Assembly: GCA_947494085.1 (NCBI GenBank)
Contig: CANLTP010000063.1
Location: 1 to 5,997, forward strand
Source of the DNA: Actinomycetota bacterium
GTDB taxonomy: Bacteria; Actinomycetota; Actinomycetes; Nanopelagicales; Nanopelagicaceae
Reading direction: 5' to 3'
DNA: 5,997 nucleotides
Part shown: positions 3,072 to 5,995 of the stretch, piece by piece
How positions within the stretch are numbered: position 1 is the stretch's first letter
How the letters are laid out: every line of letters begins with the position of its first letter
The notes under the pieces: generated by a model
Told to the model about the DNA's origin: nothing
Databases searched by the model: none
What the model saw: only the letters and a program-made list of their open reading frames with translations
Program-made: the position numbers and the translations under genes

Positions 3072-3566
3072 ATGGAAAATTTTGCAGATTTAATCGGGGC
3101 TAATCAAGAGTATGCAAACACTTTTAAATCTCGCGGTTTAAGTGGTGAAGCTAAAAAAGGTTTAGCAATTGTCACATGCATGGACTCTCGAATTGATCCA
3201 CTTCATATTGTTGGCATGGAAGCTGGCGATGCAAAGATATTAAGAAACGCGGGTGCCAGAGTCACAGAGGACGTTCTTCGTACTTTAGTTCTTGCTACTC
3301 ATCTACTTAGTGTTACTCGAATTCTGGTAATGCCACATACTGATTGCAAAATGGCCAGTGGTGAGGAACATGAAATTCACGCAGCTATTCTTGAGAAATC
3401 TGGAATCGATACTCGAGGAATTGAGATTCGCACAGTTAAAGATCAGATGAAAGCGCTTGTTACTGATATCCAGAGAATCGAAAGCTACCCGCTACTTGCA
3501 AAAAATGTAAAAGTTATGGGAGCAGTCTTTAACGTAGAAACTGGAAAATTAACACCAGTTATTTAA
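3072..3566 (+). CDS. beta-class carbonic anhydrase (164 aa)
   Basis: A zinc enzyme interconverting CO2 and bicarbonate in the cytoplasm, supplying bicarbonate to carboxylases and helping pH balance. The beta-class zinc site is complete: Cys36 with the Asp38-Arg40 dyad in VTCMDSR, then His89 and Cys92 in PHTDC. RNAGARVTEDVLR (58-70) is the other conserved block. Length and sequence fit the short actinobacterial subgroup typified by M. tuberculosis Rv1284, as I recall that protein, including the C-terminal VETGKL motif (155-160). The ATG at 3072 places the conserved core where the family expects it. It follows the transporter gene by 14 bp, and its stop codon overlaps the end of dnaB. Bicarbonate could support acyl-CoA carboxylation reactions, but no carboxylase is in view. 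Confidence 0.93.
   Translation: MENFADLIGANQEYANTFKSRGLSGEAKKGLAIVTCMDSRIDPLHIVGMEAGDAKILRNAGARVTEDVLRTLVLATHLLSVTRILVMPHTDCKMASGEEHEIHAAILEKSGIDTRGIEIRTVKDQMKALVTDIQRIESYPLLAKNVKVMGAVFNVETGKLTPVI
3539..3560. repeat. inverted repeat at the convergent gene ends, possible weak bidirectional terminator
   Basis: AACTGG (3539-3544) and CCAGTT (3555-3560) are perfect 6-bp arms around a 10-base loop in the last codons of the carbonic anhydrase gene. On the plus strand the stem is followed by an AU-rich stretch ending in TTTT; on the minus strand the T of the arm leads into TTC. The stem is short and low in GC, so it would be a poor terminator. No better one is seen between these convergent genes. 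Confidence 0.3.
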
Positions 3567-4975
3567 TTATCTTTTACAAAACTTTCAGAGTTCTGAGAAT
3601 AGCTAGGCGCCATATCGCTAAATCTCGCGAAGTGTAATTGCGCGCTTACGGTGATTGTTCGAGTTGGCCCGTTACGGTGCTTAGCAATAATTAAATCAGC
3701 TTCACCAGAACGATTCGCTCCGTCATACATATCATCGCGGTGCAGAAGAATTACTACGTCGGCATCCTGCTCGATAGATCCAGATTCACGTAGATCAGAG
3801 AGCATTGGCTTCTTATCCGCACGCTGTTCTGGCGAACGGTTTAACTGCGAAATCGCGATAACCGGAACATCAAGTTCCTTGGCTAGAAGCTTTAGATTTC
3901 TAGAGAATTCGGATACCTCTTGTTGACGATTCTCTACACGCTTTCCGGCCGTCATCAACTGTAAGTAGTCGATAACAATTAACTTCAAACCATGGCGCTG
4001 CTTTAGGCGACGAGCCTTTGCGCGAATCTCCATAAGTGAAAGGTTCGGTGAATCATCAATAAATAAAGGTGCTTGAGAAATTTCACCCATACGTTTTGCT
4101 AATCGGCCCCACTCTTCATCTGTAAGAGCGCCGGAGCGAATGTTGTTTAGAGCAACGCGAGCTTCGGCAGAGAGCATACGCATCGTGATTTCAGAGCGGC
4201 TCATTTCGAGAGAGAAAATAACTGATGGATCACCATTATGAATTGATGCATAGCGTGCAATATCAAGGCCGAGTGTTGATTTACCAACTGCAGGACGTGC
4301 AGCAAGAACAATCATGTTTCCGGGATGCAGACCATTAGTTAAAGTATCGAGATCTTTAAATCCAGTCTTAACACCTTCGCCCTTAACGCCATTTGAGATT
4401 GCTTCGATTTCATCGAGAGCGGCAGGTAGAAGTTCTGATAGTTGAATGTAATCCTCAGTTGTGCGATGTTCGGTAACTTGAAAAATTTCTGCTGATGCTT
4501 GATCTACTGCATCATCAACTTCACCTTCGCCAGAATAACCAAGTTGCACAATCTTTGTTCCGGCTTCAACTAGGCGACGCATGATTGCATGGTCGCGAAC
4601 AATCTTTGCGTAATAGCCAGCGTTTGCTGCAGTCGGAACCGAATTAATAAGTGTGTGTAAATAAGGTGCGCCACCAGCACGAGCGATGTCGCCACGCTTT
4701 GTTAATTCAGCTGCAACGGTTACTGGATCAGCAGGTTCGCCGCGACCATACAAATCTAGAATTGCATCATAAATTAATTCGTGAGCTGGTCGATAGAAAT
4801 CACGTTCGCGAATAATTTCAACAACATCTGCAATTGATTCTTTACTCAACAACATTCCACCAAGAACACCTTGCTCAGCAATTAAATCTTGAGGTGGTGT
4901 GCGTTCGAATTCAACTGTTGCGGGAATTCGATTGTTGGAGTTATTTCCGCGGTTGGGGAGTTCTGCGATGCTCAT
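3563..4975 (-). CDS. dnaB: replicative DNA helicase DnaB (470 aa from the preferred start)
   Basis: Hexameric ATP-driven helicase that unwinds DNA ahead of the replisome and recruits primase. Counting from the ATG at 4975: the N-terminal domain begins around PPQDLIAEQ (27-35) and includes FYRPAHE and YGRGEP. The RecA-like domain carries Walker A RPAVGKST (227-234, Lys232), SLEMS (255-259), Walker B LIVIDY (332-337), SQLNRSPEQR (376-385) and the arginine-finger region KHRNGP (432-437). There is no intein at LRESGS, a site interrupted in some mycobacteria. An in-frame ATG at 5014 would add 13 residues, but the inner ATG has a strong GGGAGG eight bases upstream and the extra residues look unlike the family. 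The C-terminus continues about 13 residues past the conserved FSDMAP end, into the overlap with the convergent carbonic anhydrase gene. Confidence 0.95.
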   Translation of the reverse strand: MSIAELPNRGNNSNNRIPATVEFERTPPQDLIAEQGVLGGMLLSKESIADVVEIIRERDFYRPAHELIYDAILDLYGRGEPADPVTVAAELTKRGDIARAGGAPYLHTLINSVPTAANAGYYAKIVRDHAIMRRLVEAGTKIVQLGYSGEGEVDDAVDQASAEIFQVTEHRTTEDYIQLSELLPAALDEIEAISNGVKGEGVKTGFKDLDTLTNGLHPGNMIVLAARPAVGKSTLGLDIARYASIHNGDPSVIFSLEMSRSEITMRMLSAEARVALNNIRSGALTDEEWGRLAKRMGEISQAPLFIDDSPNLSLMEIRAKARRLKQRHGLKLIVIDYLQLMTAGKRVENRQQEVSEFSRNLKLLAKELDVPVIAISQLNRSPEQRADKKPMLSDLRESGSIEQDADVVILLHRDDMYDGANRSGEADLIIAKHRNGPTRTITVSAQLHFARFSDMAPSYSQNSESFVKDN

Positions 4976-4983
4976 AGATACAT

Positions 4984-4989
4984 CCTCCC
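4984..4989 (-). promoter_or_regulatory. ribosome binding site that decides the dnaB start
   Basis: On the minus strand GGGAGG sits eight bases before the ATG at 4975. It is the best Shine-Dalgarno match in the window and lies inside the reading frame of the longer alternative start at 5014. A message starting near 5014 would therefore have a leader of about 39 bases ending in this site. Confidence 0.75.
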
Positions 4990-5080
4990 AACGACCACTG
5001 ACAAAAGATGACATTAAAACTAGCTAACATGCGTAATTTAATGAGAATGGGGTGAGAGGTGTTAGAAAGTTCTGAATTGG

Positions 5081-5144
5081 TGTGGGTGAGCGTGTGGAGA
5101 AGTTGCGAATGAGAGTGGATAACTTGTGTATAACAGGTGGATAA
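5081..5144 (-). promoter_or_regulatory. helically phased array of DnaA-box-like 9-mers upstream of dnaB
   Basis: Six 9-mers in one orientation, read on the minus strand against TTATNCACA. They are TTATCCACC (5144-5136, one mismatch), TTATACACA (5133-5125, perfect), TTATCCACT (5122-5114, one mismatch), TCATTCGCA (5112-5104, two), TTCTCCACA (5101-5093, one) and TCACCCACA (5089-5081, two). Their left ends are 12, 11, 10, 11 and 11 bp apart, close to one helical turn, so bound DnaA would line up on one face of the DNA. The three best boxes are contiguous with 2-bp gaps. DnaA binding is inferred from the motif and arrangement; the outer boxes are degenerate and could be chance. Confidence 0.6.
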
Positions 5145-5148
5145 GCGC

Positions 5149-5162
5149 GAGGGTCAACCCTC
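5149..5162. repeat. short perfect inverted repeat next to the DnaA-box array
   Basis: GAGGG (5149-5153) and CCCTC (5158-5162) flank TCAA; the outer loop bases could also pair. It starts five bases beyond the last DnaA-like box. On the plus strand TTT follows, so it has the look of a very small terminator, and its minus strand contains TTGACC, a possible -35 for dnaB. It could be an operator, but no regulator is suggested by the sequence. Confidence 0.35.
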
Positions 5163-5189
5163 TTTCACGCTCAAAACAAGTTTAAAACC

Positions 5190-5198
5190 TGTGGGTAA
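5190..5198 (-). promoter_or_regulatory. isolated DnaA-box-like 9-mer
   Basis: On the minus strand this is TTACCCACA, one mismatch from TTATNCACA and in the same orientation as the array. It begins 54 bp from the nearest array box, close to five helical turns. It lies beside the AT-rich stretch, where an origin would have a box bordering its unwinding element. Confidence 0.4.
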
Positions 5199-5220
5199 AG
5201 ATTTATTTCTTCATCTCAAT

Positions 5221-5256
5221 ATCTAAGAAATCTAAGAAATCTAAGAAATCGAAGAA
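5221..5256. repeat. four-copy 9-bp tandem repeat in AT-rich DNA
   Basis: ATCTAAGAA occurs perfectly at 5221-5229, 5230-5238 and 5239-5247, and as ATCGAAGAA at 5248-5256 (one change). It lies in a stretch (about 5199-5274) with roughly a quarter GC. Tandem AT-rich short repeats of this kind are seen in origin unwinding regions, but they also arise by slippage between genes. No open reading frame or clear promoter explains it. Confidence 0.85.
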
Positions 5257-5270
5257 TACTTACGAAATAG

Positions 5271-5296
5271 AAAAGCCCGCCTCTTTCGAGACGGGC
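5271..5296 (-). terminator. intrinsic terminator of the rpsR-rplI transcript
   Basis: On the minus strand a nine-pair stem (arms 5296-5288 and 5283-5275, one G-U pair) is closed over a GAAA tetraloop and followed directly by TTTT (5274-5271). It lies 18 bases after the rplI stop codon. The wobble becomes a C-A mismatch when read on the plus strand and no U-tract follows there, so it is directed at rplI. It separates the ribosomal operon from dnaB, which therefore probably has its own promoter. Confidence 0.88.
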
Positions 5297-5314
5297 CTTT
5301 AATTCCTAGAACTA

Positions 5315-5761
5315 TTAAATAGCTACAACTGAGATTGTAACGTTGGCAGATATTTGACCTTGAAGTGAAACCTTCGCAGTGTATTTACCAAGCTTCTTAA
5401 TATGTCCAGCAACCTTTACGCGGTGGCGATCGATATCTAGACCGGTTGCAGCTTTGATGCCTGCAGCGATGTCCTTATCTGTCACTGAACCGAATAGAAC
5501 TCCAGTTGCTCCGACCTTTGATTTGATAACAATCTCGGTCTTCTCTAGTGAGTCCTTAATTTCTTTTGCATGATCGAGGTCGCGAATTTCACGAGCGCTA
5601 CGAGCACGACGGATTCCTTCAATCTGCTTTTCGCCACCAAGGCTCCAAGCGATCGCATTGCCGCGAGGCAATAGGTAATTGCGAGCAAAACCATCTTTAA
5701 CGGTTACAACATCGCCAGCTTGTCCTAGACCTGATACTTCACGAGTAAGAATAAGTTTCAT
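5315..5761 (-). CDS. rplI: 50S ribosomal protein bL9 (148 aa)
   Basis: Large-subunit protein that binds 23S rRNA near the L1 stalk and helps keep translation in frame. The family length is about 148-150 residues, so it is full length. The N-terminal RNA-binding domain shows GDVVTVKDGFARNYLLPRG (16-34), the bL9 signature. A charged connecting helix follows (about 44-75, rich in Arg, Glu and Lys). The C-terminal domain contains GATGVLFGSVT (84-94) and HIKKLGKYTAKV (120-131). It starts 12 bases after the rpsR stop with AAGGGG eight bases ahead of the ATG, so it is translated from the same transcript, which ends at the terminator beyond 5296. Confidence 0.97.
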   Translation of the reverse strand: MKLILTREVSGLGQAGDVVTVKDGFARNYLLPRGNAIAWSLGGEKQIEGIRRARSAREIRDLDHAKEIKDSLEKTEIVIKSKVGATGVLFGSVTDKDIAAGIKAATGLDIDRHRVKVAGHIKKLGKYTAKVSLQGQISANVTISVVAI

Positions 5762-5769
5762 TTTTTATT

Positions 5770-5775
5770 CCCCTT
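5770..5775 (-). promoter_or_regulatory. rplI ribosome binding site overlapping the rpsR stop codon
   Basis: On the minus strand the rpsR stop TAA runs straight into GGGG, giving AAGGGG eight bases before the rplI ATG. Ribosomes ending rpsR would be placed on the rplI start, consistent with coupled translation of the two ribosomal proteins. Confidence 0.65.
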
Positions 5776-5995
5776 ATCGCGCTGTTGAGGTGTAAGGCAG
5801 AAGTGCCATTTCGCGGGAATTCTTTACCGCGGCAGCAATCTGACGTTGGTGTTGGGTGCATGCACCTGTAACTCGACGAGCGCGGATCTTGCCGCGATCT
5901 GAGATGTATTTGCGAAGAAGATTTATGTCTTTGTAATCGATATAAGTTGCCTTATCGCGACAGAAAGAACATGGCTTCTTCTTAAACTTCTTCAT
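5774..5995 (-). CDS. rpsR: 30S ribosomal protein bS18, zinc-binding type (73 aa, possibly longer)
   Basis: Small-subunit protein that pairs with bS6 on the platform of the 30S subunit. It has the family core IDYKD (19-23), [19 protein letters not shown] (26-44) and the ending ALLPYTS (64-70). Cys9 and Cys12 (CSFC) with Cys46 and His49 (CTQH) make the zinc-ribbon form, the C+ version kept in many actinobacteria alongside zinc-free paralogues. The ATG at 5995 is only two bases from the window edge. The incomplete codon before it cannot be a stop, so a longer N-terminus, as in mycobacterial S18, remains possible and no ribosome binding site can be seen. It heads the visible part of the rpsR-rplI operon; ssb and rpsF would usually lie just upstream, outside the window. 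Confidence 0.95.

Follow-up and report, generated by a model that had tools for sequence, protein, structure and literature searches.

A conserved, helically phased row of DnaA boxes upstream of dnaB in Nanopelagicales, probably a control region for the helicase gene

The window, by which we mean the whole analysed stretch of 5,997 bases, carries on its minus strand the genes rpsR, rplI and dnaB as recognised by Pfam, which also identifies the end of a dCTP deaminase gene, an acyl-CoA dehydrogenase, an EamA transporter and a carbonic anhydrase. The gap between rplI and dnaB holds, within 120 bp, five same-strand 9-mers with at most one mismatch to TTATNCACA, only one of them a perfect match, and two weak sites; for all seven, the minus strand is the sense strand of dnaB. 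The features are listed here in the order of dnaB transcription, with conservation given for nine close relatives (loci L001-L009, aligned with the window) or for the 77 Nanopelagicales gaps defined below.

5774-5995, minus strand: rpsR, by Pfam
5315 to 5761, minus strand: rplI, ribosomal protein L9 (PF03948 and PF01281)
5271 to 5300, minus strand: intrinsic terminator-like site 3' of rplI, a 13-pair stem followed by a T run
5199 to 5270, minus strand: AT-rich stretch adjoining box 1, 75% A+T by base composition
5213 to 5218, minus strand: TGAGAT element, 20 nt before box 1; in 47 of the 77 gaps TGAGA has exactly this distance to the first box
5190 to 5198, minus strand: box 1, the outer anchor, TTACCCACA, one mismatch to TTATNCACA; all 9 columns invariant across the nine relatives
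5168 to 5173, minus strand: TGAGCG element, 25 nt past the point where box 1 starts; the hexamer is present in 36 of the 77 gaps against 2.85 in shuffles
5149 to 5162, no strand assigned: GAGGGTTGACCCTC dyad between box 1 and box 2, from sequence reading
5136 to 5144, minus strand: box 2, TTATCCACC, one mismatch; mean column identity 0.86 in the nine relatives
5125 to 5133, minus strand: box 3, TTATACACA, perfect, no mismatch; variation among the nine relatives is limited to the free N position
5114 to 5122, minus strand: box 4, TTATCCACT, one mismatch; mean column identity 0.86 in the nine relatives
5104 to 5112, minus strand: weak in-register site, TCATTCGCA, two mismatches; poorly conserved in the nine relatives (0.54)
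5093 to 5101, minus strand: box 5, TTCTCCACA, one mismatch; all 9 columns invariant across the nine relatives
5081 to 5089, minus strand: weak in-register site, TCACCCACA, two mismatches; mean column identity 0.84 in the nine relatives
5031 to 5042, minus strand: ATTAAATTACGC, with a possible -10 region (TAAATT) of a dnaB promoter, picked out by conservation, the promoter role being putative
4984 to 4989, minus strand: GGGAGG, probable ribosome-binding site of dnaB, from sequence reading
3563 to 4975, minus strand: dnaB, replicative helicase (PF03796, 2.6e-106; PF00772, 3.8e-34); the mechanical open reading frame runs from 5014

The seven sites, which a first-pass annotation of this DNA had already placed on a single strand, were all recovered by a sequence check, and from 5190 downwards their starts are separated by steps of 54, 11, 11, 10, 11 and 12 bp. 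The rhythm of about 11 bp proposed in that annotation holds for the two steps of 11 that flank the perfect box, whereas across relatives the period is close to 10.65 bp and not exactly 11. In 1000 dinucleotide shuffles of the window the largest number of such same-strand boxes in 120 bp was three, reached in 3 of the 1000, against five in the gap itself. The observation is confirmed and is stronger than had been claimed. Matches to TTNTNCACA with up to two mismatches number 192 in the window where 203 are expected, and since such loose boxes are not rare, the two weak copies, at 5104 and 5081, count for little on their own.

The initial annotation implied a dnaB start at 5014. We reject it, because GGGAGG precedes the ATG at 4975-4973 and because in one relative (L036) the frame upstream of the matching start contains a stop, as judged by eye; translation thus probably begins at 4975. 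At the other end of the gap the terminator-like site would part rplI from the dnaB leader. The possible -10 hexamer TAAATT, conserved in the clade of the window, lies 40 nt past the last weak site and about 51 nt past the last stronger box, within a segment (5030-5043) that is conserved at 0.976 among the nine close relatives. A scan of 4950-5330 for promoters of the sigma-70 type found none, and TAARTTR, considered as a candidate -10 common to all gaps, was discarded, as it follows the last box in only 31 of the 77. No Rfam family matched the window at gathering score.

Among the nine close relatives the pattern of conservation follows the boxes. Column conservation is 0.93 in the five stronger boxes and 0.63 in the ten spacer bases between 5081 and 5144, while the stretch between box 1 and box 2, the dyad in which is kept only in part, retains 0.68; the boxes at 5190 and 5093 are invariant. 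The inner part of the AT-rich stretch (5199-5225) is conserved at 0.86 and the remainder (5226-5262) at only 0.24. Two relatives (L003, L006) carry an additional box inside a 10-nt insertion and three others (L001, L004, L005) an insertion of 11 nt, so that the length of the gap changes by approximately one helical turn.

For a broader comparison 80 dnaB loci were taken as Nanopelagicales, on the evidence of some record titles together with a DnaB identity to the window of at least 80%; the nearest DnaB relatives of the window include Nanopelagicales records, for example Ca. Planktophila lacus. Some metagenome-assembled records in this set bear the titles Bifidobacterium breve or Streptomyces griseus (L004, L024, L025, L039, L042, L048, L066, L071), with DnaB proteins 80 to 98% identical to that of the window, and a Streptomycetaceae title also occurs; since DnaB identity is at least 80%, these are probably misnamed records. 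The 76 of the 80 loci with at least 260 bp of upstream sequence (L022, L041, L054 and L077 being dropped) make up, with the window, the 77 gaps. Aligning the gaps of relatives was a check suggested in the first-pass annotation, and both the 9-mers and their spacing proved to be conserved: with at most one mismatch the 77 gaps contain 325 boxes on the sense strand and 9 on the antisense strand, the shuffle means being 15.75 and 4.0, and 17 and 3 being counted with the reversed consensus. Of the gaps, 74 have three or more boxes in sense, 2 have two and a single one has one; none is without. The boxes of these gaps accordingly share one orientation, as do those of an oriC-type low-affinity array.

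The spacing of these boxes is equally regular. Distances between adjacent boxes in the 77 gaps cluster at 10-12, 20-23, 32-34, 43-45, 53-55, 65, 73-76 and 96-97 bp, and only three values fall outside these clusters (18, 47 and 85, once each). For 145 distances from 46 distinct Nanopelagicales architectures the best period is 10.65 bp with R = 0.861, a figure that is not a probability because the 46 architectures share ancestry and are not phylogenetically independent; among 1000 random placements the largest R was 0.295, and when the 26 distinct distances are each counted once R is 0.72. With the closest steps at 10, 11 and 12 bp, this is the helical phase of an oriC-type array having about 2 bp between 9-mers. 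Weaker boxes, with at least 6 of 8 matches, occupy 51 of 549 in-register skipped positions against 1 of 1226 positions lying at least 4 nt off register (background 0.7%), a comparison partly confounded in that short gaps offer near-register positions only. The turns skipped by the stronger boxes in relatives thus tend to hold still weaker sites.

Boxes at this place extend beyond the order. From 60 genomes drawn from the class Actinomycetes 52 dnaB upstream regions were kept, three loci being set aside as Nanopelagicales (L106-L108, DnaB 82-83% identical to that of the window), one genome left out because its hits included only the C-terminal end of dnaB, and four of the 29 later-cut pieces (L199, L202, L204, L221) left out because dnaB was not found in them. 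At least one TTRTNCACA site with up to one mismatch is present in 50 of the 52 regions, and in the two regions lacking one the sequence available upstream was 0 and 240 bp. There are 47 exact TTRTNCACA sites, spread over 27 of the 52 regions, against 5 occurrences of the reversed consensus. At one mismatch the corresponding figures are 181 (123 sense and 58 antisense, where a palindromic site such as TTGTGCACA may be counted once per strand) and 29, a sense bias weaker than that in the 77 Nanopelagicales gaps. The 10.65-bp period, applied unchanged to 56 sense-strand distances of 9 to 100 bp from distinct architectures among the 52 regions, gives R = 0.79, with a Rayleigh value of 6e-16 if the distances were independent. 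In the five regions where the rplI-dnaB gap exceeds 600 bp (L118, L119, L123, L200, L213) every box listed is found no farther than about 460 bp from where the dnaB match begins. Regions in which rplI was not found have boxes too, some as far as 673 bp out, and say little about box position because only the last 700 bp were scanned. The other Actinomycetes regions use the TTGTCCACA form, which PMC4285127, in its accessible part, lists as the high-affinity box for M. tuberculosis and S. coelicolor.

The gaps contain further conserved elements besides the boxes. In several Planktophila-type gaps the TGAGA in front of the first box reads as part of an ATCTCA-N5-TGAGAT-like dyad, and GTCAGTG is found in 58 of the 77 gap slices, shortly before the ribosome-binding site where this was read by eye. 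Between box 1 and the next box there often stands, at a fixed distance, a conserved CTGACCTGC (sense strand, Nanopelagicales) or GCAGGTCAG (other Actinomycetes). GACCTGC occurs in sense in 38 of the 77 Nanopelagicales gaps (shuffle 1.25; loci among L009-L078) and its reverse complement GCAGGTC in 19 of the 52 other regions (shuffle 2.65; among L109-L220), while the opposite orientations are seen once in 77 and once in 52; the shuffles for these short motifs, as for TGAGCG, keep base composition only. Of 14 Nanopelagicales gaps printed, 11 have GACCTGC, placed 34-35 bp after the upstream box in all 9 that have such a box and 39-41 bp before the next box in 10 of the 11 (50 in L036). Among 21 printed rows from other Actinomycetes seven have an upstream box, and the motif follows it at 28 bp in four (L117, L118, L127, L198) and at 31, 88 and 95 bp in the remaining three; the next box stands 36-37 or 48 bp past the motif in 10 of the 21, the rest being scattered or without a box. 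The window itself carries TGAGCG at offset 25 in place of GACCTGC, like the 18 of the 36 TGAGCG-containing gaps in which this motif has the same offset from the closest box upstream. TGACCTGC is not enriched in the P. lacus genome, with 32 copies on both strands against about 45 expected from length alone.

Binding of DnaA next to dnaB is in itself already known from mycobacteria. As far as the accessible text of PMC7738170 goes, M. tuberculosis DnaA enriches five regions in vitro, one of which, Rv0057, lies upstream of dnaB; the homologous region of M. smegmatis is enriched in vivo by ChIP-seq, and the M. tuberculosis DnaA mutant I282T binds less upstream of dnaB and under-expresses the gene. 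The present site has the same place relative to dnaB and the same protein would be expected to bind it, and as the mycobacterial site is one of five highly enriched regions, so the dnaB gap of P. lacus is one of two dense clusters in its genome. The two differ in that mycobacteria belong to another order and the available portion of that report describes no phased or same-strand array. The first-pass remark that no standard description of such an array was known for actinobacteria is answered in part by that work, which reports the DnaA binding and, in its available portion, no phased array. DnaA boxes are also predicted upstream of dnaB in Caulobacter crescentus, where dnaB belongs to the DnaA regulon (PMC8203912, in its accessible part), although this is an alphaproteobacterium and no phased array is described in the same part. 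The closest structural likeness is with the low-affinity arrays of E. coli oriC (R5M-tau2-I1-I2 and C3-C2-I3-C1), in which, according to the available extracts of PMC4451416, sites separated by exactly two bp lie on one face; both there and here weak boxes about 2 bp apart face one side of the helix and a gap parts the anchor from the array. Unlike those, the array here lies upstream of a gene, has spacers of 1 to 3 bp and skipped turns, and no IHF site is known in it. Helical phasing is discussed for E. coli oriC only in what is accessible of PMC5043065. We found no description of a phased DnaA array at dnaB in the literature searched, a search largely outside subscription papers, and nothing on DnaA boxes in Nanopelagicales or on the Streptomyces cluster D78. 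Clusters of DnaA boxes near oriC of Streptomyces coelicolor were reportedly described by Smulczyk-Krawczyszyn in 2006, and one of these, H24, may lie near dnaB, in which case it would be the same site. As far as we have searched, then, the conserved one-orientation helical phasing and, in part of the relatives, the CTGACCTGC/GCAGGTCAG element would appear to be new.

We consider the rplI-dnaB gap to be, probably, a DnaA-binding control region of dnaB, in which a cooperative, one-faced DnaA oligomer would control transcription of the gene. Box 1 would serve DnaA as the outer anchor, and further molecules would occupy the boxes that follow in the same orientation and helical phase, most of which are weak. 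DnaA at box 1 and at the stronger inner one would nucleate a row on the weaker boxes, where neighbouring molecules, lying on one face of the DNA, could oligomerise cooperatively, much as happens at the low-affinity arrays in the oriC of E. coli. From the observed boxes we infer such binding in this lineage, together with its cooperativity, its ATP dependence and the direction of control. That DnaA binds the array at all we regard as very highly probable, and that it controls dnaB as probable. Among the three ideas first put forward for this site, control of dnaB, titration of DnaA and origin function, it is control that is best supported, if still in part, because the boxes, their strand and their helical phase are conserved, because the boxes stay near dnaB, and because DnaA binding at the mycobacterial counterpart is published (PMC7738170, accessible part).

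Assembled in a stretch cut off from rplI by the terminator-like site, the putative oligomer would alter dnaB transcription, with activation having a slight edge over repression, and the supply of helicase would follow the level or the ATP state of DnaA. Activation is favoured because the mycobacterial mutant under-expresses dnaB and because TAAATT is conserved past the array in the clade of the window. P. lacus speaks against it: there 42 nt separate the end of the array from the start codon (seen in L030, whose box offsets are shared by L028, L031, L034 and L048), leaving little promoter room downstream, an arrangement that would rather suit repression or a promoter upstream of the array. The conserved short blocks outside the boxes could also mean that other proteins matter as much as DnaA.

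One question then is whether the array serves DnaA rather than dnaB, soaking up the protein or promoting its ATP hydrolysis once the array has been duplicated close to oriC, as a titrating or datA-like site would, so that its adjacency to dnaB would be a matter of gene order. A whole-genome scan, of the kind proposed at the outset, was made on the complete P. lacus chromosome: it contains 803 sites with at most one mismatch, 20 of them exact, and only two places at least 1 kb apart reach at least four boxes in 200 bp, a cluster of six at 1562-1755, after dnaA in the canonical oriC place, and a cluster of five on one strand at 1439643-1439792, which is the dnaB gap. The latter is some 20 kb away from that end of the record which carries dnaA and so has, as a datA-type site does, many boxes near oriC; in B. 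subtilis and S. coelicolor clusters near oriC can repress untimely initiation, those of S. coelicolor being likewise actinomycete DnaA-box clusters (PMC4585315, accessible part). On the other hand, the listed boxes keep within about 460 bp of the dnaB match where the gap exceeds 600 bp, and a strict orientation and phase over nine turns exceed, as we see it, what titration needs. Nor is exact TTATNCACA clearly enriched genome-wide in five relatives, with 20, 31, 51, 25 and 22 copies against 23, 35, 39, 24 and 20 for the reversed sequence. We therefore think titration unlikely as the principal function, while it may be a side effect of dnaB control.

Considerably less probable is that a regulator other than DnaA binds the 9-mers, or that something unrelated to DnaA, such as a dnaB leader RNA, constrains them. 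The further conserved elements TGAGAT, GTCAGTG and CTGACCTGC speak for other proteins that may bind the gap. However, the same kind of 9-mers stands at the oriC of a relative: in G005, the genome of L001, groups of boxes that include the variant TTATCCCCA lie on both sides of dnaA with steps of 23, 11 and 10 bp. The TTGTCCACA form of other Actinomycetes is a listed high-affinity box (PMC4285127) and in mycobacteria it is DnaA itself that binds upstream of dnaB (PMC7738170), in so far as both texts are accessible, while a leader RNA finds no counterpart among the Rfam families at gathering score.

Origin function, with the phased boxes and the AT-rich stretch acting as an unwinding element for an origin or auxiliary origin, is more doubtful again. 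Its attraction is the origin-like anatomy of anchor box, gap, phased weak boxes and a flank of 75% A+T; the cumulative GC skew of P. lacus (G001:C1), which is weak, reaches its minima near 1.41 Mb and 55 kb, which bracket both loci rather than coinciding with dnaA, and cannot separate them. We reject an origin at the gap because separate clusters of boxes occur at dnaA/dnaN, the canonical oriC place, in G005 and P. lacus, apart from the dnaB gap, and because neither strand of the gap contains a run of at least four triplets resembling the DnaA-trio by one simple pattern. In addition, the AT-rich sequence beyond 5226 is not conserved (0.24). Finally, a chance cluster without function, for which one might cite the loose boxes being as common in the window as in shuffles, is refuted by the conservation, strand bias and phase in the 77 gaps and in other Actinomycetes, as well as by the shuffles of the window itself, and we give it practically no weight.

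A second, small group of DnaA boxes occurs just after ppiA and a rhomboid gene (L086 10679-10710 in P. lacus; L223-L252). Of the 30 such loci shown, from 41 genomes searched, 18 have an exact TTATCCACA no more than 80 bp from where the rhomboid gene ends, and in 13 of those 18 a second box follows after 13 bp; among the rest two have one-mismatch boxes only, one has no rhomboid match and a box after ppiA, and nine have none there. We take ppiA to be Rv0009, a neighbour of the Rv0010c-Rv0011c DnaA site of M. tuberculosis, so that the ppiA group too may be ancestral. Rv0010c-Rv0011c appears as a DnaA site in the accessible part of PMC7738170.

Returning to the control of dnaB by DnaA, a bolder form of this reading can be proposed, tentatively and as something possible rather than probable, in which the dnaB upstream region of Actinomycetes would be an orisome-like device outside the origin. 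It would comprise an anchor box, then a spacer measuring about 64 bp, or 75 bp in many Nanopelagicales, which in many lineages contains at a fixed distance the conserved CTGACCTGC/GCAGGTCAG element that a DNA-bending or regulatory protein would recognise, and a one-faced low-affinity array that ATP-DnaA would fill only near initiation, so that the helicase gene would read the same signal as oriC and helicase supply would be timed to origin firing. The comparison arises because the anchor stands about 64 bp from the array with an element between them, an arrangement reminiscent of the R1-R5M gap of E. coli, which contains an IHF site (PMC4451416, available extracts).

Dense clusters of DnaA boxes are confined in a related genome to oriC and the dnaB gap, and to our knowledge the matching of helicase supply to initiation in actinomycetes is not settled. 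In this context the conserved, phase-locked DnaA array at dnaB offers a concrete and testable site, which may sense the same DnaA state as the origin. The gaps together amount to a natural collection of phased arrays on double-stranded DNA, away from oriC, in which DnaA oligomerisation can be studied, and the element held at a fixed distance between anchor and array points to a partner protein.
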